Part shown: piece by piece, positions 6,420-45,182 of the stretch
Numbering within the stretch: the stretch's first letter is position 1
Layout of the letters: every line of letters starts with the position of its first letter
Assembly (NCBI GenBank): GCA_025361935.1
Contig: JANYJB010000013.1
Coordinates: forward strand, 1-45,182
DNA length: 45,182 nt
Reading direction: 5' to 3'
From: Verrucomicrobiota bacterium
GTDB lineage: Bacteria; Verrucomicrobiota; Verrucomicrobiia; Opitutales; Opitutaceae
Position numbers and translations under genes: made by a program
Notes under the pieces: generated by a model
The model's database searches: none
The model's input: only the letters and a program-made list of their open reading frames with translations
Told to the model about the DNA's origin: nothing

Positions 6420-6579
6420 AGCGAACACGATTGAAACTGAACTCAAAGGTAAGTGAAAGCTAGTTGCGGCGTCTCTCTCCCGTCAATTTGCCTTCGCTCT
6501 CGGCGGGCAAGTCAGTGACTGTGAACAAAAGCTGGTGGCAAATTACCCCGTCGAAACCGCTTTCCTCCAGTCAAGTCCC

Positions 6580-9500
6580 GTGAACAAAACCCTGTCCATT
6601 ATTCTCGCCGCCGTCCTGCTCACACCGGCTTTGCCGGCCAATGAAAAACTGAAGATGGAAAACGCGCTCTACGCGGTCGAATACGATGCGGTCGCGACGG
6701 AATTCTCCATTTTTCACAAACCCTCTGGCAGGGAGTTCGCCACCCACGGCAAGTTTGAAAATCGCAGCGGCACGGCGTCGGTCAAACCCGTGACGGACCC
6801 GACGTTCGGCGCGGCACAGTCGATCGAGATCGTCCGCTCTGATGGCAACCGCGACACGATCCTGCTCTGCCCGAATCTGCCCTTCGTGCTTTTCCGTGGC
6901 AGCCTGCACAACGCCTCCGCCGAACCGGTGGTTCGCAACAAAGTCCGCACCGTTTCCGCCGTCGTGGAGACTGGCGTCGTATTGTCGGAGGTGCGCACGC
7001 TCGGCACCGGAGGTTTGCTCGCCCCGGACAAAAATCCCGGCAGTTACGCCTTTCTTTCCGTCGCCGATCCGGCGACGCGGAATGGCGTGGTCGGCGGCTG
7101 GATCACCCATGAACGTGGCAGCGGCGTGGTCTTCTCTCCGGTGCAGGACGGCGCAGTCCGCCTGCAGGCCCAGATCGACTACGGGCGTCTGCGCATCAAA
7201 CCGGGCGCGGACGCCGCCACCGAGACCTTTGCCCTCGGCTGGTTTGACGATGCGCGGCTGGGCCTGGAGGCGTATGCCGATGCCATCGCCAAAGTGTATG
7301 CGATCAAATTGCCGCTCCAGAAAGCCGGGTTCAGCACTTGGTATATGGAGAAACACGGCGGGGCCTGCGACGAGGTTCACCTGCCCGAAGTTTCGGCGCT
7401 CGCCGCTAAAGAGCTAAAACCCTTCGGCTTCGATTTCATCCAAATCGACGACCTATGGCAGGTCGGAATCAAGGACAACGGGCCGAAGAAAAACTTCACC
7501 ACCTACGCGCCCAAGGGCCCCTACCCAAGCGGGATGAAAAAGGCCGCCGACAACATCTCGCAGTTCGGTCTGGTGCCCGGCATCTGGTTCATGCCTTTTG
7601 CGGGTAACTACAAGGACCCGTATTTCAAGGATCATCAGGATTGGTTCGTCAAAAACGCCGAGGGGAAACCCTACGATACCGTCTGGGGCGGCACCTGTCT
7701 CGACATGACCAATCCCGCCGCGCAGGAGCACGTGCGCGGTATCGTGCAACGCATCGCCCACGACTGGGGCTACCGGTTGTTTAAAATGGACGGCTACTGG
7801 ACCGGCAGCGCCACCAAGCAGATTTACGTCAACGATGGCTACAAGGAGGATGGCATGGGCGACGCCGAGTTTTTCAACCCCGACAAAACCAACATCGAGG
7901 CGCTGCGCGACGGCACCAAGCTCGTCCGCCAGGCCGCCGGGCCGGATGTTTTCCTGCTGGGCTGCTGCGTGTCCCAGAACATGCGCTCCTTCGGCGGCAC
8001 CTTCGGTCTGCTCAACGCCATGCGCGTCGGACCCGACACCGGTGGCAACATCGGCTCTCTCCAAGGCTCGCGCCTGTGGTTTCTCAACGGCCGGGTGTGG
8101 TGGAACGATCCCGACTGCGTGTTCGTCCGCAAGAGCATGACCCTCGACCGCGCGCGCCTCAACGCCACCTGGACCGCCATTTCCGGTCAGCTTTTTTACA
8201 CCAGCGACTGGATGCCGGAAACTCCGGCCGAGCGTCTCGATATCGTCAAACGCTGCATTCCCGCGCACGGTTTGCCCGCCCGCCCGGTTGATGTGTTTGA
8301 GAGTTCCGTAGCCAAGGTCTGGCTGCTCACCGACACCCGCCAGACCGTCCGCCGCGATGTCGTTGCCCTCTACAACTGGAGCGACAAGACCGACAACCTC
8401 TCGCTCAAAACCGACCGTATCGGTCTCCCGCCGGCGCCGGAGTATGTCGCCTTCGATTTCTGGGCGGACCAATTCGTGGCGCCCTTCCGCGACACGATCA
8501 CCGCGTCGCTTCCGGCCAATTCCTGCCGCATCCTTGCCGTCCGCCCGGTCTCGACGGTGCCGCAGCTCCTCAGCACCTCGCGCCACGTGACCCAGGGCAT
8601 CGTGGATGTAACCGACGAGCGCTGGGACGAGGCGAGGTCCGTCCTCTGCGGCGTCAGCAAGGTCGTGGCAAACGACCGCTACGAACTCCGCATCGTCCTC
8701 CCCGTCGGGGAAAAATCCTGGCGCTCCGCCGAAGTTATCCTTTCCGCGAGCGACACCGCGGCCGGCGTGAAGGCGACCTTCCAGCAGGATGGTCCGAAAC
8801 TACGGGTCGCACTCAACAGCCCAACCAGCCGCGAAGTGAAGTGGGCGCTCCGCTTCGAACCTGCAAAAATTGAAGTTACACCACCCGCGCCGGTCACAGA
8901 GCTGCGGGCCGAAGCCATCTCCAAGCACGTCAACCTCACCTGGGCGGATGCGCGCGCCGACACCTACCGTATCGAGCGCAACGACGGCGTGGTTTTTCAT
9001 ACGCTCCAAAATGCATTCACCGATTCCACGGTGCAGAGCGGCACCCGCTACACCTACCGCGTGACCGCCCTAGGCTGGGACGGCGCAGCAGCATCTCCCG
9101 CGACCGCGCAGACCACATCCAAAGGGCTGGAGCGTCCGATCACGCCCCCCGCGCCGACGATTCACCTAAGCGACCTTACGCCCACCCGGCTGCTCAACGG
9201 CTGGGGCAAACCCGTTGCCAATAAATCCATCGGCGGCGGACCGCTGCGCCTTGACGGGCAAACCTACGCCAAGGGAATCGGCGCCCACGCCAACGCCCTC
9301 GCGGTTTATTCCATACCGGATAAATCCACCCGCTTTGTCTCGTTGGTGGGCATTGACGATTCGCAGAAGAAAGACCCGCGCTCCAGCGTGGTATTCCAAG
9401 TTTACGGTGACGTGAAGGAAATGGGCGAACCGCCCGTCTTGCTTGCCGAGTCGCCCGTGCTCTCGGACCGGTCGATCCGCACCTGGGCCTTCAACGTGGA

Positions 9501-9609
9501 GCTAAACACCCGCTACAAGGAACTGCGTCTGGTGATGACCGACGCGGGCGACGGCATTAACGGCGACCACGCCGACTGGGCAAACGCGGGCTTCATCACA
9601 GGCCAGTAA
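6580..9609 (+). CDS. Secreted melibiase-type (GH36/GH27-like) glycosidase with FnIII and NPCBM domains
   Basis: From GTG 6580 the protein has 1009 residues and starts with a good signal peptide (about 1-20); GTG 6535 would add 15 residues. An N-terminal beta-supersandwich (about 25-245) precedes a TIM barrel (about 250-570) with FIQIDDLW, GIWFMPFAG and the nucleophile motif FKMDGYW (Asp404). Asp486 in RVGPDTGG is the likely acid/base. A C-terminal beta domain follows, then an FnIII domain (about 780-865) and a C-terminal NPCBM-type domain (about 880-1007; YAKGIGAHANA). Enzymes of this build remove terminal alpha-galactose or related sugars from polysaccharides outside the cytoplasm. The substrate is not shown by the sequence. 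No transporter or regulator is adjacent. Confidence 0.83.
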   Translation: MNKTLSIILAAVLLTPALPANEKLKMENALYAVEYDAVATEFSIFHKPSGREFATHGKFENRSGTASVKPVTDPTFGAAQSIEIVRSDGNRDTILLCPNLPFVLFRGSLHNASAEPVVRNKVRTVSAVVETGVVLSEVRTLGTGGLLAPDKNPGSYAFLSVADPATRNGVVGGWITHERGSGVVFSPVQDGAVRLQAQIDYGRLRIKPGADAATETFALGWFDDARLGLEAYADAIAKVYAIKLPLQKAGFSTWYMEKHGGACDEVHLPEVSALAAKELKPFGFDFIQIDDLWQVGIKDNGPKKNFTTYAPKGPYPSGMKKAADNISQFGLVPGIWFMPFAGNYKDPYFKDHQDWFVKNAEGKPYDTVWGGTCLDMTNPAAQEHVRGIVQRIAHDWGYRLFKMDGYWTGSATKQIYVNDGYKEDGMGDAEFFNPDKTNIEALRDGTKLVRQAAGPDVFLLGCCVSQNMRSFGGTFGLLNAMRVGPDTGGNIGSLQGSRLWFLNGRVWWNDPDCVFVRKSMTLDRARLNATWTAISGQLFYTSDWMPETPAERLDIVKRCIPAHGLPARPVDVFESSVAKVWLLTDTRQTVRRDVVALYNWSDKTDNLSLKTDRIGLPPAPEYVAFDFWADQFVAPFRDTITASLPANSCRILAVRPVSTVPQLLSTSRHVTQGIVDVTDERWDEARSVLCGVSKVVANDRYELRIVLPVGEKSWRSAEVILSASDTAAGVKATFQQDGPKLRVALNSPTSREVKWALRFEPAKIEVTPPAPVTELRAEAISKHVNLTWADARADTYRIERNDGVVFHTLQNAFTDSTVQSGTRYTYRVTALGWDGAAASPATAQTTSKGLERPITPPAPTIHLSDLTPTRLLNGWGKPVANKSIGGGPLRLDGQTYAKGIGAHANALAVYSIPDKSTRFVSLVGIDDSQKKDPRSSVVFQVYGDVKEMGEPPVLLAESPVLSDRSIRTWAFNVELNTRYKELRLVMTDAGDGINGDHADWANAGFITGQ

Positions 9610-9739
9610 AAAACTAAATCGCTCATGCGCCGACTGTGCCCCCACCCTTGATCTCTCTTGTGTTGTCCTCATTTTCAATGGCCCCGTCTTTGTTTTGCGG
9701 ATTTGCCAAGGGCGCGGCTTTTCCCCACGGTCGCGTTCA

Positions 9740-10678
9740 TTGAACGCCTCATGGGACACGCTTAAGCTTCTCTCCGACCCCACGCGCCTGCGTTTGCTGG
9801 CCCTGCTCCTCCGCGAGGAACTCGCCGTCGCCGAGCTCCAGGAAATACTCGGCATGGCCCAGTCGCGCATCTCCTCGCAACTCGCCCTCCTCCGCCAGGC
9901 CGACGTCGTGATTGACCGCCGCGAGGGGAAAAAAGCCTTCTACTCCCTGCGCCCCGGCCTGCCCGCCAAAACCCTTTCGCTCCTTCGTGCCGCCTGCGAC
10001 GCCGTCGCCGAGCTGCCCGAACTCGCCGAGGACCGCGCCAATCTCGAACGCAGCCTCCAGAAGCGCCGTGCCCACCAGGAACAGTATTTCAATCTCATCG
10101 CCGGCAAGCTCGGGAAAAACTACTGCCCCGGCCGCTCGTGGGAGGCCATCGGCCACCTCGCCCTCCGCCTCGCCCCCAAGATCACCATCGCCGACCTCGG
10201 CGCCGGCGAGGGCCTGCTCTCCCAGCTTCTCGCCCGCCGCGTCAACCAGGTGTGGTGCATCGACAACTCGCCCCGCATGGTCGAAGTCGGCACCGAGCTC
10301 GCCGCGAAGAACGGCCTCGCCAACCTCGCCTACAAACTCGGCGACATCGAGGACGTCCCCCTCGCCGACCGCTCCGTGGACCTCGCCATCCTTAGCCAAG
10401 CCTTGCACCACGCGCAGCACCCCGAAAAAGCCGTCGCTGAAGCCTACCGCATCCTGCGCCCCGGCGGACAAGTGCTCATCCTCGACCTCAAGGAGCACGA
10501 CTTTGAAAAAGCCCACGAGCTCTACGCCGACGTATGGCTGGGTTTCAAGGAAAGCGCGCTCCACGGATTCCTGAAAAAAGCCGGCTTCCACCACGTCGAA
10601 GTCTCCACGGTCGCCCGCGAACCCAACGAGCCCCATTTCGAAACGCTGCTCGCCAGCGGCAACAAGCCGACGCGCTGA
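9740..10678 (+). CDS. ArsR-type winged-helix regulator fused to an SAM-dependent methyltransferase
   Basis: From TTG 9740 the protein has 312 residues; a TTG at 9695 would add 15 residues that do not fit the family. Residues 1-75 form an ArsR/SmtB winged helix (LLSDPTRLRLL, then AQSRISSQLALLRQADVV). The metal-sensing Cys motif of ArsR is absent: the region reads ELAVAEL with no cysteine. Residues 130-312 form a class I methyltransferase: motif I DLGAGEG (152-158), CIDNSPRMVEV, and YRILRPGGQVLILD. Related fusions in other bacteria are linked to control of the methionine/S-adenosylhomocysteine cycle, so it may sense SAM or SAH; this is inference. No methionine-cycle gene or SAM/SAH riboswitch is next to it. 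Confidence 0.85.
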   Translation: MNASWDTLKLLSDPTRLRLLALLLREELAVAELQEILGMAQSRISSQLALLRQADVVIDRREGKKAFYSLRPGLPAKTLSLLRAACDAVAELPELAEDRANLERSLQKRRAHQEQYFNLIAGKLGKNYCPGRSWEAIGHLALRLAPKITIADLGAGEGLLSQLLARRVNQVWCIDNSPRMVEVGTELAAKNGLANLAYKLGDIEDVPLADRSVDLAILSQALHHAQHPEKAVAEAYRILRPGGQVLILDLKEHDFEKAHELYADVWLGFKESALHGFLKKAGFHHVEVSTVAREPNEPHFETLLASGNKPTR

Positions 10679-14656: not shown

Positions 14657-17140
14657 CTAACCCTCTCGCAACCAGAGGCCAATACCCAGTGCGGGAACGT
14701 AGAGATTGGCCTCCACTCGGCGCCCTCCGCCGGCGTGAAAGGTTGAAAAAAACCGCTCTTGGTCAGCGAGTTGCCGCCAATCACCCAAAGCGACTTCATC
14801 ACTGATCGGGATCGTCACGTCATAGATGGTGGGGTTGATCGCAAAAAGGATCTGCTGCGGCCCTTGAGAATGATCGGCGTTGTAAAGCACGGCGGGCGCG
14901 GCGGTATCGGCCGCCCAGAAAAACTGAAAGAACCCCTCGGTCGCGCGCGAAAAGTGACGCAGCAACCGGCCCGGCTCCGACCGCCGAAAGGCGATCCAAT
15001 CCGCAAAGTAAGCATGGGTGGACGGGAACCGGTAAATGCGCCGGTAATCCAGGGCGTTCACATCGCCCATCTGGTAGGTGTTGTTGATGCCCTGCTTCGA
15101 GCGGATGAAGTCCTGCCCGGACGAAAGCATGGGAATGCCGATCGACATGTGCAGGAAGGCCGCCATCAGGTGCGTGCGGCGGCGGTCGTTGAGCGTGGGA
15201 TGGTCGCCGTTGCCGCTGGGGTTTTCGGTGATGTTGTCGATCCAGGTCTTGTCGTCGTGCGACTCGGTGTAGTTGACAGTCTGCGCCGGCCACTTCGCGT
15301 AATACCACGGCGAGCCCTTCAGGTAATACTCCAAGCTCTCTCGCGTGCCGCCGCCGCGCACGTAGTCGCGCACGAAATTGCGGTAGCCGTCGTTCCACGA
15401 GGCCCAGCCGGTGTCGCGCAGTTCGCCCGCAGCGTGTCCGCGGAAACTCCACGGCTCGGCGATGAGGATCACGTCGGGCTTCACGCGCTTCAGGGCGACC
15501 TCGACCTGCTTAAGCACGTCCACCCCCACGAGATCGGCCAAGTCGAAGCGGAAACCGTCTACGCCGTAGGTTTCCACAAGATGACGACAACTGTCGATGA
15601 TCAGGCGCGTAGCCATCACGGAACGCCCGCGCAGGTCGTTTCCGCAGCCGCTCCAGTTGGAAAGGTTCCCCGCGCCGTCCTGCTCGAAATAATAAAGCCG
15701 GTCCACAAACATCAGGTGCGCCGGTTCGCCCACATGGTTGTAAACCACATCAAGAATCACCGCCATGCCACGCCGATGGAAAGCCGCGACGAGGGCCTGC
15801 AGCTCCTTCACGCCGGAGGCGCGCGCAGGATCGAGCGCGTAACCGCTGTCGGGCGCGAAAAAATTATCCGTCATGTAACCCCAGTGGTATTCGTCGGCCG
15901 TCTTCGCGTCATTCTGCTGCACGGGCTGGAGCTCCACACAGTTCACGCCAAGACGGTGTAGATAAAAATCCGGGTGCTCGACCCACTTGCGCAGACCGGT
16001 GAACCCGCGCCGCTCTTCCGCACTCATCGCAACGGGCGCAAGCGCGGCGAGGTCGCGCACGTGCGCCTCGGCCATCACCAGGTCATGCCACGCCGGGGTC
16101 TTGAAATCGCGATCCCCCTGCCCCACCCAAGCGGCATCCAGCACGATGCCCGGCCCAAGACGACCGACAGCGGCCAACGCATAAGGATCAAGCACGCGAT
16201 ACTGCGGATCAAAAAGCCCGAAGGCGTCCGCCGGCCCGTCCACCTGATACCAGTAGAACCAGCCGTGCAGGTTGTCGGCCAAAGTGATCTCCCACACACC
16301 AGCCCGGCCATGTTGGTCGCCCCGGCGCACGAGAGGATAACGATGCGGATTGTCCTGCTGGTCGAGCGCGGCGCACACGGACAGCCAGACGGATTTTGCA
16401 CGCGGCGCGAAAAGCCGGAAAACCGTCTCCCCTTCGCGCACCAACGCGCCGAGAGGCAAATCGGTCCCCAGCGCGTAAAAAAAGTCGCCCGGCATGAGCG
16501 GCACGCTCTCGTCGGTTTCCCCCAGCGCCCACCGCACCGTCGCCGGCTCCGCGAGATTATGGGGATGCGCCAGAGTGAACTTGAACAAGTGCTGGCCGGT
16601 GCGCTCAGGATCAATCGACAGGTTGAAATTGCCCGAGCCGTCACGCACGGCGTTCGGCGCGCCCGCGTTTACCGGCAGCCAAACGTGCGCCGCCGTCACG
16701 AATTTGAACCGCATGTGCGGATTGCCATAAAACCGATCCGCCGCGCCCGACCACAGCAGCACCGGATCACCGTCCAGCGAAGCGACCCGCAACGCCCACT
16801 CCGTCTGCCCCACCGCCTCCTGCCAGCCGTTAAAATCACCCGCCAGATAAATGGTCTCCACCGCCGGATTGATTTCCGGGTGTTGGGAAAGCCGCAGGAA
16901 AAAATAGATCTCGTTCTTGCGGTTGACGAAGTAGCCGCTCTCGCAGCCAAAAGTATAGTCCGGCACCCGCTGCAACGACTGAAACCGGTCAGCCCCGCCC
17001 AACGCCAGCGGCGGCAGGTGCCGCGCCTTCCAGTCATGGAGCAGCTCGACAAACCCCTGCGTCGGAGATTCCAGCCATGCACGGGCGATTTTTTTGGGGC
17101 GATGAGACATGACTTTGGAAAACGAAGTATCATTCCCCAT
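14657..17140 (-). CDS. GH13 alpha-glucan debranching-type enzyme (pullulanase/isoamylase group)
   Basis: From ATG 17140 the protein has 827 residues; ATG 17110 (MSHRPKKIARAW) is an equally good start. Two beta-sandwich modules come first: one at about 68-190 (IYLAGDFNGW) and a CBM48-type one at about 218-305. The GH13 barrel follows, with YHWGYMTDNFFAP, VILDVVYNHV (region I), GFRFDLADL (nucleophile Asp533), LIAEPWSF (acid/base Glu562) and TESHDDKTW (Asp629). YHWGY in place of YNWGY and the LSSGQDF block fit type I pullulanases and glycogen-debranching enzymes that cut alpha-1,6 bonds. No signal peptide is seen, so it probably acts on intracellular glycogen. No other glycogen gene is adjacent; gap lies downstream on the same strand. 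Confidence 0.85.
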   Translation of the reverse strand: MGNDTSFSKVMSHRPKKIARAWLESPTQGFVELLHDWKARHLPPLALGGADRFQSLQRVPDYTFGCESGYFVNRKNEIYFFLRLSQHPEINPAVETIYLAGDFNGWQEAVGQTEWALRVASLDGDPVLLWSGAADRFYGNPHMRFKFVTAAHVWLPVNAGAPNAVRDGSGNFNLSIDPERTGQHLFKFTLAHPHNLAEPATVRWALGETDESVPLMPGDFFYALGTDLPLGALVREGETVFRLFAPRAKSVWLSVCAALDQQDNPHRYPLVRRGDQHGRAGVWEITLADNLHGWFYWYQVDGPADAFGLFDPQYRVLDPYALAAVGRLGPGIVLDAAWVGQGDRDFKTPAWHDLVMAEAHVRDLAALAPVAMSAEERRGFTGLRKWVEHPDFYLHRLGVNCVELQPVQQNDAKTADEYHWGYMTDNFFAPDSGYALDPARASGVKELQALVAAFHRRGMAVILDVVYNHVGEPAHLMFVDRLYYFEQDGAGNLSNWSGCGNDLRGRSVMATRLIIDSCRHLVETYGVDGFRFDLADLVGVDVLKQVEVALKRVKPDVILIAEPWSFRGHAAGELRDTGWASWNDGYRNFVRDYVRGGGTRESLEYYLKGSPWYYAKWPAQTVNYTESHDDKTWIDNITENPSGNGDHPTLNDRRRTHLMAAFLHMSIGIPMLSSGQDFIRSKQGINNTYQMGDVNALDYRRIYRFPSTHAYFADWIAFRRSEPGRLLRHFSRATEGFFQFFWAADTAAPAVLYNADHSQGPQQILFAINPTIYDVTIPISDEVALGDWRQLADQERFFSTFHAGGGRRVEANLYVPALGIGLWLREG

Positions 17141-17227
17141 GCCAACCACCGCACAAGATTGAAAGCGCCCCTACGCGTTCCACAAGCGGTTGACAAACCA
17201 CAGCCGCTGCCCACGTCGTGATGCTTG

Positions 17228-25821: not shown

Positions 25822-26759
25822 TGAGCGGGAGTGGCGCTTTGCTTAAAACGCTGCACGGCAGGGCCAACCAGTTCTCGAACCAATTCGGTAAAATCTAACC
25901 CCACACAGCGCGCGCTCTTCGGCAAAAGGCTGGTCTCTTTCATGCCCGGCAGCGTGTTGATTTCCAGCAAATAAAGTGAGTTATTCACATTTTGTTCACC
26001 AAGGATGAAATCCACCCGCGCGTAGTCGCGGCAGCCACAGGCCGCAAAGGCTGTTTCGGCCGCTTTTTGCACCCCAAAAGTGGTCGCTTCATCCAGCGGC
26101 GCGGGCGCCAGATACTCGGTCGCGCCGGGCGTGTATTTGCTCGCGTAGTCGTAGACGCCGGACTTCGGGCGAACCTCGATCACGCCCATGGCCCGCCCGT
26201 GCAACACCCCCACCGAAAGCTCCCGGCCAACGATGCGTTGCTCGATCAACCAGTGACCGGAAGTGATCGCGTCCAACGCGCGCACCAACGTCGGCCGGTC
26301 CAGCGCGACAGTCAGCCCGACGCTGCTCCCCTCGGCGTTCGGCTTGACCACGACCTGGCCGCCAAGCTGCGCGATAACCGCGTCAGCCGTCGGTTTTGCG
26401 GCGGCGGCGAAACTGATGCCTTTGGCAACGCCGACGCCCCTCGCGGCTGCGGCGGCCTTCGTGCGCGTCTTGTCCATCGTCAGCGCACTGCCCACCGCGT
26501 CGCAGCCGGCATACGTCACGCCCGCTGCGTCCAGCAACCGCTGCATTCCTCCGTCCTCGCCAAACGTTCCATGCAGCGTGGAAAACACGACGTGGCGCGC
26601 CGGGTCCAAACCGGGCGGCAGTGCATCGGCGTCTATCTCGAACAACCGCGTCGGATGGCTGCGCGCGAGCGCGACCGCCGAGGCGCGGCCGGAACCGAGC
26701 GAGACTTCGCGTTCAGCCGAGGTGCCACCGCAGAGGACCGCTATGATGGGTTCATTCAT
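25818..26759 (-). CDS. ddl: D-alanine--D-alanine ligase
   Basis: A 313-residue ATP-grasp enzyme that joins two D-alanines for the peptidoglycan stem peptide. Residues include Glu16 (GGTSAEREVS), GSSVGL with Ser146 and Tyr209 in the omega loop (ASKYTPGATEY). Tyr at this point marks D-Ala-D-Ala rather than the D-Ala-D-Lac (VanA-type) enzymes. EINTLPGMKETSLLP provides the metal ligands. The gene overlaps murCB by 4 bp upstream and ftsQ by 4 bp downstream, so the three are probably translationally coupled. Confidence 0.96.
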   Translation of the reverse strand: MNEPIIAVLCGGTSAEREVSLGSGRASAVALARSHPTRLFEIDADALPPGLDPARHVVFSTLHGTFGEDGGMQRLLDAAGVTYAGCDAVGSALTMDKTRTKAAAAARGVGVAKGISFAAAAKPTADAVIAQLGGQVVVKPNAEGSSVGLTVALDRPTLVRALDAITSGHWLIEQRIVGRELSVGVLHGRAMGVIEVRPKSGVYDYASKYTPGATEYLAPAPLDEATTFGVQKAAETAFAACGCRDYARVDFILGEQNVNNSLYLLEINTLPGMKETSLLPKSARCVGLDFTELVRELVGPAVQRFKQSATPAQ

Positions 26760-29071
26760 AAAACATCCTTCCAGTTTTTCCCGTAGAGAATCACCTCGGG
26801 CTCAAGCTGCACGCCCTGCGCCTCGTTCACGCGCGCACGCACGCGGCGCACGAGCGCGATCACGTCCGCCGCCGAAGCGCAGCCTTGGTTGACAATGAAA
26901 TTCGCATGGGTCGCCGAAACCTCGGCGTCCCCCACCCGCTCGCCTTTGAGCCCGCTGGCATCGATGAGACGCCCGGCGGAATCATCCGGCGGGTTTTTAA
27001 AAATGCAACCCGCGCTCGGCTCGCGCGGCTGGGATTTCTGCCGTTTCTCTTTGCAGACCTCCATCCGGGCCGCGACCTCGCCCGCCTCCGCCCGTGATGC
27101 GGGCCGAAGCAACGCCCCCAATGCAATCGCCTCGTGCAACTCCGCGCAGTGGCGGTAGTCCACGTGCATCTCAGATTTTTTAAAAATGCGGATCTCGCCG
27201 TCAAAAGTCATTACCTGAACCTCCTCGACCACGTCGAACATCCAACCTCCCATCGCACCCGCGTTCATGCGCAACGCACCGCCGATGTTTCCCGGAATCC
27301 CCTCCAAAAACTCAAACCCGACGAACCCGACCTTTGCCGCCAGCCCGCAAAGATTTTTCAGACGCAAGCCCGCGCCCGCCCAAACGCAACCGTCCGCGCG
27401 CGGCTCAAAACTCTCCCACGCCGGTTGCCGCAAACTGACGACCAGCGCATCCACGCCTTCGTCGGGCACGAGGAGGTTTGAGCCGCGCCCGAGCATGATG
27501 ACCGGTAGATCCAACGACTTCGCGGCCTTCACCAGCGCCTGCAAATCCCCGACGCCGGCGGGCTCCGCGTAGATGCGTGCGGCGCCGCCGATGCCGATGG
27601 TCGTTTTCTTCGCGAGCGATTCCTCGCATTTGATCTTCGTGGCCGCAGAAACCGCAGACTGTAGAGTTTCCGCACTCTTCACCCAGTCTCTCTTCGTCGG
27701 CATCAACTCCAGCCACTCGCGCGCCATCACGTCGATGTCGCCCGCGCCAACAAATGCCACAAAATCTCCCGCCCGCCGCCCTTGCGCGAGCGCTCGCAGC
27801 AATCCATCGTTGTCACCCTGACGATAAACTACCGGCAGCCCCGGAGCGATGCGCTGCAACTCCGCATGAACATCCGCCGTGGTGCCACCGGCCAGCGGGG
27901 CTTCGCCCGCGCCATAGACATCGATCAGGTAAACGGCATCACCCAGCGCCAGCGCCGACGCGAACTCCGCCTTGAACTGCGCCGTGCGGCTGAAACGGTG
28001 CGGCTGAAAAACCACTACCAGCCGTCGGTCCGTGCGTTTGCGAAGGCTGCCAAGAAGCGCGCGAATCTCCGCCGGATGGTGCGCGTAATCCTCGATCACC
28101 GTCAGCTCTTTCGTCGTGTGCAGCACCGCCTGACGACGGCGCACGCCCGGATACGCGGCCAGCAGATTCTCGAACGACCCGCTCACGCCCATGAGATGCG
28201 CTGTCGCGAGCGCGGTGGTGGCGTTGGCCGCGTTGAATTCACCCATGGCCCGCACCGTGGCCCGTCCCGCAGGAAAACGGCCGCCAAGCGCGAGTTCGAT
28301 GGCTCCGGCGCGGTCACTGACGAGATCGGCCTGATAATCACCCGAGAGGCCAAACGACAACCGCTTCCGATTGGGCGCAGCCTTGGCCAACAGCGAACAA
28401 GCTTCGTTGATCAACACGGTTTTTTTTGTGCGCGCGAAAAGCACGCCAAACGCATTCTCCAGATCGGACTGCTGCCGATAGTGGTCGGGATGATCCCAAT
28501 CGAGGTTCACCGCCACCGTGATTTCCGGACTAAAATTTCCGATCGTGCCGTCGCTTTCGTCGATCTCCGCCACGACCCAGTCGTTCGCGCCCGCGACCGC
28601 CGGCGGCACCGCGTCATCGTTGAAAAGTCCGCCGAGCACATATCCCGCCGGAAAACCCGCCGCACGCAACGCCGTGATCAGCATGGCCGTGGTGCTGGTT
28701 TTCCCATGCGAACCGCAGATGGCGACAAGCCTCCGGTCACGGGTCGCCTCGGCCAGCAGTTCCCCGCGCCGCACCAGCGACAGCCCGCGAGCTTTTGCCG
28801 CAAGCGCGGCGGGATGAGACGACACAATCGCGGATGAACAAACCACAAGCTGCGTCGCTTCAGGCAAGGCACCCGTAGCCGTCAAGGTGACGCCGGCGGA
28901 TATCAGCTCATCGCGCATGGCGGTCGTCATCGCGTCGTCTTCGCCGCTCACGGAAAATCCGCGCCCAACAAGATAGATCGCAAGTGGTCCCAAGCCCATT
29001 CCTCCGACTCCTACGCAATGCAACGCAGTCACGGGTTTACCGAAAAGCATGGGTGGCTGAACAACTCTCAT
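26756..29071 (-). CDS. murC/murB: Fused MurC (UDP-MurNAc--L-alanine ligase) and MurB (UDP-enolpyruvyl-GlcNAc reductase)
   Basis: A 771-residue fusion. Residues about 15-455 are MurC: HCVGVGGMGLGPLA, the P-loop GSHGKTSTT (120-128), EIDESDGTIGNFSP, EDYAHHPAEI and QPHRFSRT. Residues about 480-771 are MurB: TTIGIGGAARIYAEP and LGRGSNLLVPDEG (FAD site), EFLEGIPGNIGGALRMNAGA, VDYRHC and the end LEPEVILYG with the catalytic Glu. The proton-donor position, usually Ser in the GSIFKNP-like motif, is Cys689 (SAGCIFKNP). MurB makes UDP-MurNAc and MurC adds L-Ala, so consecutive steps sit on one chain. No separate murB is in the cluster. ATGA overlaps join it to murG and ddl. Confidence 0.96.
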   Translation of the reverse strand: MRVVQPPMLFGKPVTALHCVGVGGMGLGPLAIYLVGRGFSVSGEDDAMTTAMRDELISAGVTLTATGALPEATQLVVCSSAIVSSHPAALAAKARGLSLVRRGELLAEATRDRRLVAICGSHGKTSTTAMLITALRAAGFPAGYVLGGLFNDDAVPPAVAGANDWVVAEIDESDGTIGNFSPEITVAVNLDWDHPDHYRQQSDLENAFGVLFARTKKTVLINEACSLLAKAAPNRKRLSFGLSGDYQADLVSDRAGAIELALGGRFPAGRATVRAMGEFNAANATTALATAHLMGVSGSFENLLAAYPGVRRRQAVLHTTKELTVIEDYAHHPAEIRALLGSLRKRTDRRLVVVFQPHRFSRTAQFKAEFASALALGDAVYLIDVYGAGEAPLAGGTTADVHAELQRIAPGLPVVYRQGDNDGLLRALAQGRRAGDFVAFVGAGDIDVMAREWLELMPTKRDWVKSAETLQSAVSAATKIKCEESLAKKTTIGIGGAARIYAEPAGVGDLQALVKAAKSLDLPVIMLGRGSNLLVPDEGVDALVVSLRQPAWESFEPRADGCVWAGAGLRLKNLCGLAAKVGFVGFEFLEGIPGNIGGALRMNAGAMGGWMFDVVEEVQVMTFDGEIRIFKKSEMHVDYRHCAELHEAIALGALLRPASRAEAGEVAARMEVCKEKRQKSQPREPSAGCIFKNPPDDSAGRLIDASGLKGERVGDAEVSATHANFIVNQGCASAADVIALVRRVRARVNEAQGVQLEPEVILYGKNWKDVL

Positions 29072-41307: not shown

Positions 41308-41760
41308 TTATATTCCGATGCGGCGCATGAGATCGCCGAAGTTCTCCCCGGCCGTGCGCTGTTCCACCCGAACCCAACGGTCGGGACTGTAGAGACTGAA
41401 TTTCGTCAGCGAGCCCACCAGCACGGCGTCCCTGGAGATGCCGGCATGCGTGAGCAGATCGCCGTTGAGCATGATGCGACCCTGCTTGTCGAAACCGAGG
41501 GTCTGCGTCTGCGAGAAAAAGCGGGCGGCGAAATCCTGCGCCGAACCGTCCGACAGCGCGATCGCCTCGATCTTGGCGCGAAGCTTCGCGACTTCGGAAG
41601 GCGGCAGGATGGCGATGTAGCCATCGGGATGCGGCGTCGCGAGAAACTGCTCCCCTTCATCATGCGCAGAACGCCACGCCGACGGAATCGTGACACGATT
41701 TTTGTCATCGAGCGTGTGCCTGAAAAGGCCGGTATAGGAAGCTGTGCCGATTTGAGCCAT
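41308..41760 (-). CDS. mraZ: Transcriptional regulator MraZ
   Basis: From ATG 41760 the protein has 150 residues. It has two SpoVT/AbrB-like halves; each MraZ motif is a variant of DxKGR: TLDDKNRVTIPSAWR (residues ~15-29) and GFDKQGRIMLNGDLL (~89-103). MraZ is the autoregulator of the dcw operon and binds TGGG repeats before its own gene, which are present here. The frame upstream to 41805 crosses that operator and is not used. No ribosome-binding site is visible. Confidence 0.95.
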   Translation of the reverse strand: MAQIGTASYTGLFRHTLDDKNRVTIPSAWRSAHDEGEQFLATPHPDGYIAILPPSEVAKLRAKIEAIALSDGSAQDFAARFFSQTQTLGFDKQGRIMLNGDLLTHAGISRDAVLVGSLTKFSLYSPDRWVRVEQRTAGENFGDLMRRIGI

Positions 41761-41785
41761 TGGAGCATGGAGAACCGCCAAGTCC

Positions 41786-41819: not shown

Positions 41820-41877
41820 CACTAGTCAAGACAACTCCGTGGTAAATCACGTATTTTGGCCGAAAACTTATTCACAA

Positions 41878-42462
41878 TTAAGTATGCCTACCTTGGCCGT
41901 TGGTATAGCGGAGTTTGAACTCAGGTTGATCGGGAAGCCCGATCTTCACCTCGGCCCAGAACTCCCCTCGGTCTATGAACATGTCCTGATTGATGCTCGG
42001 ATAAGCAGCTTGGCCGTTCTTATTCGTCACCTGATTGATCGGAAGCCACGGACTGCCAGAAAAGAATCCGCCGACACCGTCGTAGAACGTGCGGAAGCGT
42101 TTATAACCAACGTCAACCGAGCCAACCTCGGACTTGAGCAGATTGAGGTGAAGGAGATAGTCCTCGGTCCCGCTGAGGGCATGCCCGTCTATGGTCAATG
42201 TGGTAGTCTTGCTAAGGTCACGGCAATAGCGGGCGTCTTCTATGCCGACCCCATCCTTAAACTCCGAAACCCCAGTGCGGGCCTGAAACGCCGAACTGTC
42301 GCCTTTTATGGAGGCGGCTTGTCCTGTGACCTTGATATAGCTGTCGAAGGCAGGGAACGCGTCGGAGTTATCCGCCGCGAGAAGCTGCGCCGAGAATATG
42401 GTAAGCGAGGCCGCCGTAAGCAACCCCACTGCGTGAAACAACTTGGAAGATGTCGTCTGCAT
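41878..42462 (-). pseudogene. N-terminal fragment of an MtrB/PioB-type outer-membrane beta-barrel protein
   Basis: 194 residues with a signal peptide (about 1-30, ending AQLLAAD). The mature part shows features of MtrB/PioB porins: GVGIEDARYCRDLSKTTTL, HLNLLKSEVGSVDVGYKRFR, YDGVGGFF and EFKLRYTNGQ. Full-length members are several hundred residues long and sheathe a multihaem cytochrome through the outer membrane. Here the frame stops five residues after RYTNGQ, where the family normally goes on, and no further barrel sequence is found before the mraZ operator 58 bp away. It is thus most likely a deletion remnant. It directly follows the MtrA/DmsE-type cytochrome gene (18 bp), as in intact loci. 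Confidence 0.7.
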
Positions 42463-42480
42463 GTTGATCGAATTTAAGGG

Positions 42481-43275
42481 TTATTGGCGGAAGTGATTGT
42501 TGACGTTGGACCCGTGGACAGCCTCGTGGCAGCCGGCAGTCCAGCAGGTGCCAGACATCAATCGGCTGTTATGACTTGTGCCGCCGTGATTGATCGCATT
42601 GGCGTTGATCTGACCGGCAGCTATCTGTGTTTCGAGGTGGCAGCGGAGACAGAGGTTGGCGTCGCGGGCGACGAGCATCTTCTGGTTCACCGAACCGTGC
42701 GGGCTATGACAGGAAACGCAGCCCTCCTTGACCGCGCCGTGCTCGAATACAAACGGACCTTTTTGAGAGATATGGCAGTTGGTGCAGGTATCGTTCATAC
42801 TCTCCAACGAAGCGCCCGTTCCCTTGATGGCGTTGCCGCTATGAACGTCGTGGCAATCCACACAGCTGACTTTGCCGGCGAGCACCGGGTGGGTGTGCGG
42901 CAGGCTGAACTCGCCGCGCTTCTCAAGATGGCAGGCGAAGCAGGCCTCGGGAGACTTCCGGGGGTTGACGATGTTGTTGCGTCCGCCGCCGGCCTTCACG
43001 TGCAGGCTGCCGGGACCGTGACAGGCCTCGCAGCCGGTGTCGCCCAGCTTGGGATCGGCGATGGCAAGCTTGGCGTGGCTCGCCGACTTGAAGTGATCGG
43101 TCTGGTCCGAGTGACACTGTGCGCACTCCTTGGTGCCCACGTAGGTGGCACCCGCTATTTTGGCGGGCGCGAGAATTGCGCGGTTCACGCTTACACATCC
43201 GATAAGCACCAGCCCCCATAGGGCGATGCCTCCGAAGATGAGCGAGGTTTTGTTCCAGCGGATGCGGGAGGTCAT
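42481..43275 (-). CDS. Multihaem c-type cytochrome of the MtrA/DmsE type, predicted lipoprotein
   Basis: From ATG 43275 the protein has 264 residues. Residues 1-27 look like a lipoprotein signal (lipobox LIGC, Cys27), which would anchor it to a membrane. Seven CxxCH haem sites start at Cys51, 82, 112, 138, 164, 186 and 209, and an eighth is CWTAGCH at 244-250, a C-x4-CH site. MtrA/DmsE proteins usually carry ten haems, so this one is shorter. The ACHGPGSLHV block and spacing fit the DmsE family. It would carry electrons across the periplasm to an MtrB/PioB porin; the porin gene that follows is truncated. Upstream is a cytochrome b/c fusion. Confidence 0.85.
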   Translation of the reverse strand: MTSRIRWNKTSLIFGGIALWGLVLIGCVSVNRAILAPAKIAGATYVGTKECAQCHSDQTDHFKSASHAKLAIADPKLGDTGCEACHGPGSLHVKAGGGRNNIVNPRKSPEACFACHLEKRGEFSLPHTHPVLAGKVSCVDCHDVHSGNAIKGTGASLESMNDTCTNCHISQKGPFVFEHGAVKEGCVSCHSPHGSVNQKMLVARDANLCLRCHLETQIAAGQINANAINHGGTSHNSRLMSGTCWTAGCHEAVHGSNVNNHFRQ

Positions 43276-43444
43276 GGTTTTAACGGGTGTCGGTTGTCGT
43301 TGGTGTGTGACGCAAATAGTCCGGGTATCTAGCGGTGCCCACATTGCCACTAATGCGGAGTTTCGACTGCGCACGCCTTGGCATGTGCTGCGCAGACTTT
43401 GCCGCAATTCTTGCTATCGCTTGATTTTCGCGGGACATGGCAGC

Positions 43445-45182
43445 CTAGTGACCGAGCCTCAAAATCATCGCATAAACAATGAGGCCGAGCAGCACGAGGC
43501 CGGTGCCAAAGAAAATGAATCCAAAAGTCTTCGCGATGTTCTTACGGCCCTCCCAGTCGTCGGCCTTGATGCGGTAAACTTCGAGACGGCCGGCGGCGAC
43601 AAGGCGATCATACCAACGCTTCCGCTCGTGAAGCATCTCGGTCTTGGAGATGCGCCCCGAGAAGATCACGGTGTCCATCGGGAATTTCTCGATGCGGAAA
43701 TGCGTGTTGAAGAAATGAAATGAGAAGATGAAGCCCGCCGCGAGCAGCGCCTCGTCGGAGTGGACCACGAGGGCGATGTTGATCATCCATCCCGGCATGA
43801 AGTGCGTGAAGAAATTCGAGAACCACCTGACGAGCCCCGAGAATCCGATAATCGCCACGCCCCAGAACACCGCGAAGTAGTCGAAGCGCTCCCAGTAGGT
43901 CCAACGGTCGAACTGCGGACGCGATCCCTTGCCGAAGAACCATTTGTTGTGCGCCACGAAGTCGCGCCAGTCCTGGATGGACGGCACCATCGAGTCGGGA
44001 CCGAATACGGTGGTCCAGATGCGGCGCAGCGAAAACTTGCCGGTGGCCGGATCAAGGAGCGCCTTACGATTATTCCAGAAATTTTTCACGAGGCTAGAAA
44101 CGTGCAGGACGAAATAGGCGAAGGTCACGACCGCCGCATAGTGGTGAAGCGTGCGCGCCACCTCGGCGCTGCCGATGAGGCGGAACATCACCTTGGCCCA
44201 CTCGGTGTAGTAGAACTTGAGCGGCATCCCGGTGATCACCAGCGCGAGGAAGTTCGTCACCATCATCAGGTGCAGGAAGCGCTCGAAGGGCATGAAGCGC
44301 GTGAACACATCGTCGTCGACATGCGTGAGGATCTTCGACTCGCGGAATGTCTTCGTATCGTGCAGATACAGGTAGATCGAGCGGACCAGCCAAAGGAGCG
44401 TGTGCAGTCCGAAGAATACAAACACACTCACGAGCGGCGTGGTCATGAACCAGAAAACCTTGTTGAGAATCGGGTAGTTGGCCTTGTCGAGCGGGTTGGC
44501 GTGCGGCTGGTATTGGGTGAAGCGCGCCGTCACGCCGGGGTGGCATTGCTGGCAGGTGCCGACGATGTTGTCCTTGTGCAGGCGCGAGCGCGGATCGTTT
44601 ACGGGGAAAACGTCATGGTGGCCGTGGCAGTCGAAGCACGAGGGCGCGATCACCAGCCCCATCTTAACGAGGGCGCGGCCGTGAATTCTGTCGAGGTAAT
44701 GGCCGGCGACCTTCTGCTGGCCCATGCGGTATTCCGTGGTGAGCTTGGCGTTGTCGTGGCAGGCGCCGCAGGTTTTCGGGAGGTTGAATTTAAAGACGGG
44801 GGAATCGACCTGCTTCACGGGAATGATGTCGTGTTTGCCATGACAGCTGACGCAGAAGGCGGCATCGGACGCACCCAGCTTGTGGCTCATGCCATGGATG
44901 CTCGCGGCATATTGGGCGGCGGGCTGCGCATGACAGGAGACGCACTGCGCGGGGGAAGCTTCGAGGGGTGCGGCGTCTCGGCAATGCCAGCATGGCAATC
45001 GACACAGTTGAGTTTCCCGTGGACGGATTTTTTTAAGATTTCCGGACGCACGCCCGTCCAGACGGCCGGTTCGCCTTTTTTGAGCGGTTTGAACTCGGCC
45101 TCGTGGCAATCCATGCAGTCGCTGTTGGGCACGGCGGGCTTCGCGGGGGTGACCGCGACCGGTTCGCCTGCGCTCGCGCAGG
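43445..45182 (-). CDS. Membrane cytochrome b fused to a seven-haem c domain, CbcL-like; partial and frameshifted
   Basis: The gene runs off the right edge; its start is outside the window. The N-terminal part, read in one frame to about 44960, has haems CMDCH and CVDCH. After a shift of frame the rest has CVSCH, CVSCH, CGACH, CFDCH and CQQCH, then about six membrane segments of a HydC/FdnI-type cytochrome b (FERFLHLMMVTNFLALVITG, HHYAAVVTFAYFVLHVSSLV). One extra base in the G-run at 44951-44955 restores a single frame that reads KLPPAQCVSCHAQ across the junction. Such fusions (CbcL of Geobacter) pass electrons from menaquinol to periplasmic cytochromes. It precedes the MtrA/DmsE-like gene by 169 bp. 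Confidence 0.8.
   Translation of the reverse strand, partial: LRERRRTGRGHPREARRAQQRLHGLPRGRVQTAQKRRTGRLDGRASGNLKKIRPRETQLCRLPCWHCRDAAPLEASPAQCVSCHAQPAAQYAASIHGMSHKLGASDAAFCVSCHGKHDIIPVKQVDSPVFKFNLPKTCGACHDNAKLTTEYRMGQQKVAGHYLDRIHGRALVKMGLVIAPSCFDCHGHHDVFPVNDPRSRLHKDNIVGTCQQCHPGVTARFTQYQPHANPLDKANYPILNKVFWFMTTPLVSVFVFFGLHTLLWLVRSIYLYLHDTKTFRESKILTHVDDDVFTRFMPFERFLHLMMVTNFLALVITGMPLKFYYTEWAKVMFRLIGSAEVARTLHHYAAVVTFAYFVLHVSSLVKNFWNNRKALLDPATGKFSLRRIWTTVFGPDSMVPSIQDWRDFVAHNKWFFGKGSRPQFDRWTYWERFDYFAVFWGVAIIGFSGLVRWFSNFFTHFMPGWMINIALVVHSDEALLAAGFIFSFHFFNTHFRIEKFPMDTVIFSGRISKTEMLHERKRWYDRLVAAGRLEVYRIKADDWEGRKNIAKTFGFIFFGTGLVLLGLIVYAMILRLGH

Follow-up and report, generated by a model that had tools for sequence, protein, structure and literature searches.

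In the contig JANYJB010000013.1 (45,182 nucleotides, called here the window) of a Verrucomicrobiota bacterium of the family Opitutaceae (assembly GCA_025361935.1), we found that the genes between position 41878 and the contig end are probably part of a verrucomicrobial porin–cytochrome conduit, which would carry electrons out of the cell. We put the probability of this identification at roughly 0.62; the figure covers the identity of the locus as a conduit locus, while the breaks that it carries are treated through rival explanations. Three coding pieces were called on the reverse strand, in the place and order given by the original prediction, which had been made from the DNA letters alone: a CbcL-like protein with an N-terminal c-haem region and a C-terminal b-type membrane domain (43445 to beyond 45182, open reading frames and domain scans), an intact MtrA/DmsE-type octahaem lipoprotein of 264 residues (42481-43275, open reading frame, domain, profile and alignment evidence), and an N-terminal porin fragment (41878-42462, 194 codons, about 180 of them homologous). 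No other called open reading frame of the window contains a CXXCH motif, and relatives of all three parts were found close together in other genomes. Gene content and order, the homology of the MtrA-like protein, its pairing with a porin and the conservation of its haem sites are the observations on which this reading is built.

Profile comparisons argue strongly for the assignment of the octahaem lipoprotein to the MtrA/DmsE type, and in this respect the original prediction was borne out at the level of homology. A profile of 13 aligned MtrA-like rows matched PDB chain 6r2q_A with an E value of 8e-43, best over the C-terminal haem region; we take this entry to be the Shewanella MtrCAB structure, although the search table labels the chain otherwise. 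By hhalign, the MtrA-like protein matched a decahaem protein of a Photobacterium plasmid with 99.9% probability (E 1.4e-33), whose gene has a porin gene on one side and, on the other, the gene of a surface-type cytochrome with 10 haems; we named these plasmid genes MtrC, MtrA and MtrB according to their order, their homology and the number of haems, and the record carries no annotation there. The window protein has seven CXXCH sites, one CX4CH site and the lipobox LIGC. Each of the eight haem motifs is conserved in 13/13 aligned rows, as is the cysteine of the lipobox column, and a simple lipobox pattern fits 9/13. Its scores stay below the curated thresholds, both for the best NCBIfam match, GSU2203 (NF041028; 173.3 bits, cut-off 325), and for DmsE (TIGR03508; 157.5 bits, cut-off 192.2), of which the ten haems are also lacking.

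The pairing with a porin recurs in the relatives. The best 80 of 532 confirmed MtrA-like profile matches were listed, giving 78 named loci, not all from separate genomes; many of these loci are short, so gene counts refer to the loci as recovered. By a rule-based call, a porin gene directly follows the MtrA-like gene in 68 of the 78 loci, and three of the ten that failed the rule (L129, L181, and L188) still had a called porin. NapC-type hexahaem genes were present in 28 of these loci, DsrP-like genes in 23, and CbcL-like genes in seven, one of the seven being just 31% identical. Locus L141 has the order cytochrome c, NapC-type, CbcL-like, radical SAM, MtrA-like, and porin, which matches the order in our genome, where the cytochrome c and NapC-type genes lie on a second contig. 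The five genes of this set, radical SAM not counted, are present in a different order in L159 and L168. The search of relatives for the locus, which had been proposed as a check, thus gave the five-gene set in L141, L159, and L168. The radical SAM gene separating the CbcL-like from the MtrA-like gene in L141 occupies positions 8550-9890 of that locus. We had inferred a deletion of about 8.8 kb between these two genes from the intact same-genus sister genome, G003, and dropped it because L141 has a single gene between them.

Two further features were seen near conduit genes in relatives. In eight of the 78 loci, the neighbourhood of the conduit genes also encodes another b/c protein, which has 13 CXXCH and is related to the CbcL-like protein (L055:14044-16362 and relatives). 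The NrfD/DsrP-type quinone subunit of a neighbouring cluster carries a clean insert of about 155 residues between its halves in G027 (L057:7733-9484) and G035 (L058:13082-14842); the G027 insert holds a cyclic-nucleotide-binding domain, and G003 is without the insert.

At family level the MtrA-like gene is widespread, with 115 of 252 genomes carrying it, from 33 of 49 genera (E 1e-40), while within the genus it was detected in 2/13 genomes (E 1e-30), the NapC-type gene in 3/13 and the C-terminal part of the porin in 2/13, our genome not among them. In G008, contig ends truncate both the NapC-type and the porin piece; this genome may be a third carrier in the genus, and for the same reason we rejected it as a second decaying genome. 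The genomes nearest by mraZ, G005 and G006 (97%), gave no match to the MtrA-like, CbcL-like, NapC-type or porin sequences. Estimated completeness is 88% for our genome, 87% for G005, and 92% for G006. A neighbourhood of genes that we take to be HIT and nrdR was considered as proof of porin loss and rejected, as neighbours vary within the genus and G006 shares the layout.

Two further cytochrome genes of this genome were found at the start of the second contig, C104, namely a small cytochrome c gene and a NapC-type hexahaem gene, the product of the latter having a NapC/NirT domain above cut-off. Beside this pair lie two membrane-protein genes, presumably for ResB and CcsA, that also adjoin it in G003 and L141, and because of these shared neighbours C104 and the contig carrying the window (C83) are probably neighbours in the genome. 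Looking for further multihaem genes past the contig end, as had been proposed, gave the NapC-type and cytochrome c genes on this probably adjoining contig and, as told below, no outer-surface decahaem gene in its first 20 kb.

The intact CbcL-like homologue in G003 has 725 residues and 11 CXXCH, and the window protein is 82% to 89% identical to it. Seven c-haems had been counted in the window copy, and that count was right, but the sites do not share one reading frame: the frame 44887-45180 has two of them, and the one that ends at 43445 has the other five. The break in frame is near 44950, and the 5' end of the gene lies beyond the contig. Compared with G003, about 117 residues holding four CXXCH are missing, and both blastn and protein alignment place the point of this in-frame loss at 44612-44638 on the reverse strand, the blastn comparison giving two colinear blocks that are separated in G003 alone. 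In the window copy, Cytochrome_C7 scored above its cut-off (29.1 bits against 24.8), whereas Ni_hydr_CYTB scored 22.9 and 28 bits, below the cut-off of 30.1 that the G003 protein passed with 33.6. Compared with PDB sequences, the b domain gave one match, at E 1.1. The protein has the architecture of the CbcL/MtrH/MtoC group, a multihaem N-terminal half joined to a b-type (HydC/FdnI-like) membrane half. Placement of the cytochrome b with formate dehydrogenase or nitrite reductase subunits, the result that had been named as contradicting the original prediction, was rejected from the scores, the formate dehydrogenase gamma model TIGR01583 giving 38 bits against a cut-off of 115.85 and the NrfH and NrfB models also scoring below cut-off.

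The porin piece was rightly called a fragment, identified by blastn and an alignment: the porins of its family have about 740 residues, of which it comprises the first ~180. The G003 porin has 761 residues; homology to it stops at 41896 (blastn), and homology to the upstream regions of other mraZ genes begins at 41876, which sets the junction at 41876-41896 on the reverse strand. The gene that follows on this strand (41308-41766) is presumably mraZ, the first gene of the dcw cluster, names that we take from position and conservation; its conserved upstream region is complete in the window. Searches of this assembly recovered neither a DsrP gene nor the C-terminal part of the porin.

From homology and gene order, a working conduit of this type would be expected to operate as follows, with quinol oxidation, porin insertion, the lipid anchor, the direction of flow and the acceptor all read in this way. 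Two proteins would oxidise membrane quinol, the CbcL-like b/c protein and the NapC-type hexahaem protein encoded on C104, and electrons would reach the MtrA-like protein by way of periplasmic haems, which belong to the CbcL c-domain and the small cytochrome c. The MtrA-like protein, a lipid-anchored octahaem protein, would sit in its partner porin and pass electrons across the outer membrane to an external acceptor such as humics or metal oxides. The strain as assembled could not run this conduit, because the porin is cut and the cytochrome b is shortened and out of frame. The view that the lineage has, or had, a conduit similar to those of Geobacter and Shewanella thus holds as an inference from intact relatives, but the set is broken in this genome, which had earlier been seen for the porin only.

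Several points weigh against the identification. The porin had been described as MtrB/PioB-type, which the curated models did not support: the window fragment had no Pfam or NCBIfam match, and neither did three full-length relatives, PF11854 and the NCBIfam MtrB models included. We scanned 76 porin rows, the window piece and its 75 relatives in two alignments, with E limits of 1 and 0.1; of these rows PF11854 MtrB_PioB matched four (best E 2e-7), GSU2204 seven (best E 9.6e-9), YadA_anchor ten, and Porin_O_P six, and since the last two exceed PF11854, an MtrB signal is not the commonest one. Ten divergent porins rescanned singly (E up to 0.01) gave no PF11854 match and one Porin_O_P match just above cut-off, while hhalign between the porin and the plasmid porin in the MtrB position returned probabilities of 2.3% and 0.8%. 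Against PDB sequences, one porin profile search gave a single chance match (E 0.56) and the second gave none, and a plasmid search for more MtrB-like porins returned the same record only. The porin can thus be called MtrB-like by position and size, not by family membership as tested. The CbcL-like designation comes from the architecture and from weak domain matches. An outer-surface decahaem gene was not seen in the window or in the first 20 kb of C104. For the verrucomicrobial members as a group, the proposed function depends on gene content and homology. The lesions are concentrated in the final 3.3 kb of C83, and the first 105 bases of C104 are window sequence in an orientation unfit for a simple join. 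Finally, the ratios of nonsynonymous to synonymous substitution rates (dN/dS) against G003 are 0.24 for both the MtrA-like and the small cytochrome c genes, above the 0.04-0.12 of six dcw genes, which could mean some relaxation, a reading tempered by the CcsA-like neighbour gene, whose 0.155 also exceeds the dcw range.

Recent loss and assembly errors at the contig end both fit the breaks, and the data do not decide between them. That the breaks are assembly errors, with the conduit intact and its remaining parts in the unrecovered portion of the genome, has in our view only slightly less than an even chance. The position of all three lesions and the ill-fitting start of C104 favour this explanation, as do the completeness of 88% and the G008 pieces that are likewise cut at contig ends. 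It has to contend with the join itself, since the genome has no second copy of the porin–mraZ region and the mraZ upstream region is whole, with the failure to find the DsrP gene and the rest of the porin, and with the lack of matches to the four genes in G005 and G006, although G005 is just 87% complete. Because these two genomes show no match, loss may occur in the group. Real and recent decay, in which the lineage is losing its conduit and this genome was caught midway, is a tentative explanation to which we give less than even odds; it would account for the MtrA-like gene having been found in two of 13 genus genomes, for the lack of matches in G005 and G006, for the cytochrome b and the porin both being broken, and for the MtrA-like dN/dS above the dcw range, whereas some of the absences may reflect incomplete assembly, as in G008.

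Evolutionary rates bear on both explanations. Against G003, dN/dS is 0.09 for the NapC-type gene, 0.13 for the porin piece (180 residues), and 0.08 for the CbcL-like gene (its 501-residue in-frame part). In 13 relative-rate comparisons across four genes, no remaining part had a significant excess of amino-acid changes in this lineage over G003, the largest difference being in the CbcL-like protein (21 versus 12 changes, p 0.16), and the MtrA-like protein has changed less here than in G003 (p 0.044, 0.006, 0.16, and 0.058 for four outgroups). In the MtrA tree, the window copy lies beside G003 with a branch of 0.07 versus 0.29 (support 93/54). The lack of a significant excess speaks for assembly errors and against decay, and the breaks are therefore either recent or errors of assembly; the remaining parts were under constraint until recently, and any real loss would accordingly be recent. 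A further explanation, that the retained parts form a periplasmic relay, delivering electrons of quinol to an acceptor within the periplasm without an outer-membrane step, seems very improbable. The MtrA-like protein is indeed intact and constrained while the porin is cut, but the cytochrome b frame is broken too, and the porin follows the MtrA-like gene in most of the named loci. On another reading, also unlikely, the locus would be a short, lipid-anchored, eight-haem MtrA in a non-MtrB porin, served by both a NapC-type and a CbcL-type quinol oxidase, in a small-genome lineage that is losing the membrane-spanning part while its haem proteins stay under selection, perhaps as a periplasmic relay.

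The synonymous divergence from G003 is 0.66 for the MtrA-like gene (42484-43275) and 0.76 for the CbcL-like gene (43448-44950), below the 1.24-1.81 of five of the six dcw genes, the sixth, mraZ, having 0.73. These low values may be due to exchange between lineages or to chance.

Elsewhere in the window, the carbohydrate-active candidates are an alpha-amylase/CBM48 protein (14657-17149) and a protein (6535-9609) that has an NPCBM domain and a Melibiase match slightly below cut-off. As one alpha-amylase/CBM48 and one NPCBM protein among ten window proteins scanned, they lend slight support to the polysaccharide-degrading background that had been proposed for this bacterium. A single 771-residue frame (26756-29071) fuses Mur ligase domains with MurB-type domains, and a methyltransferase is fused to an ArsR-type DNA-binding domain at 9695-10678.

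Some soil and lake bacteria probably use a gene set of this kind for exporting electrons. Were the conduit functional, humics or minerals could serve in the respiration of a large part of one verrucomicrobial family, with consequences for carbon flow in wet soils and brown lakes. The original prediction had identified real parts and made a reasonable guess at function, while over-calling the porin family and the novelty.

Two reports bear on this novelty, namely PMC5615132, which we take to be the mSphere 2017 paper of He et al., and PMC6295460, presumably that of Zhong and Shi (Front Microbiol 2018); both are represented here by excerpts. In the former, clusters with a porin gene beside a periplasmic cytochrome of eight haem sites are described from bog Verrucomicrobia, Opitutus terrae, and others, outward electron transfer to humics is proposed from gene content, and homologues of the Shewanella and Geobacter systems are stated to be absent (PMC5615132). 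Verrucomicrobia are listed again with putative conduits in the excerpted text of another source (PMC6344600). For CbcL, a b domain of the HydC/FdnI-like kind, with which our b-domain matches agree, a family range of 3-23 haem motifs, and four homologues counted in Verrucomicrobia are reported (PMC6295460). The combination of CbcL-like, MtrA-like and porin genes in one verrucomicrobial cluster was not found in the portions of the literature searched; each part had already been described for Verrucomicrobia in the excerpts of PMC5615132 and PMC6295460. The window is one more, damaged, example of a described kind of conduit.

Compared by description, our locus may resemble the clusters of PMC5615132: the octahaem cytochrome gene stands next to a large porin gene in 68 of the 78 named loci, and next to a porin fragment in the window. 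The locus differs in that no CbcL-like or NapC-type partner is named in the excerpted text, in that the cytochrome here is clearly MtrA-related, and in that the porin is truncated; the MtrA homology would tie those clusters, described there as non-homologous, to a well-studied system and make them testable with known tools. A 2013 paper (PMC3669403) had earlier given the name MtrA to an Opitutus protein, crediting it with 7-8 canonical haem motifs, the eighth written as TxxCH, while our alignment has CX4CH at the eighth motif. Set beside the CbcL/MtrH/MtoC family by its description in PMC6295460, the b/c protein shares the N-terminal CXXCH region and the C-terminal b-type membrane domain, and contrasts in haem count, 11 in the intact G003 copy and seven in the window copy. 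The GSU2203-GSU2204 families (NF041028 and NF041027) are similar in that the former is the best NCBIfam match of the cytochrome and the latter is matched by 7/76 porin rows; they differ in that the cytochrome stays under the curated cut-off and the window porin fragment has no match. With the Shewanella MtrCAB system and the MtrA/DmsE family, the locus shares a homologous cytochrome and a porin gene directly after it, and differs in its eight rather than ten haems, its lipobox cysteine, the absence of an adjoining MtrC-like gene from what was seen here, and a porin that is unrecognisable as MtrB.

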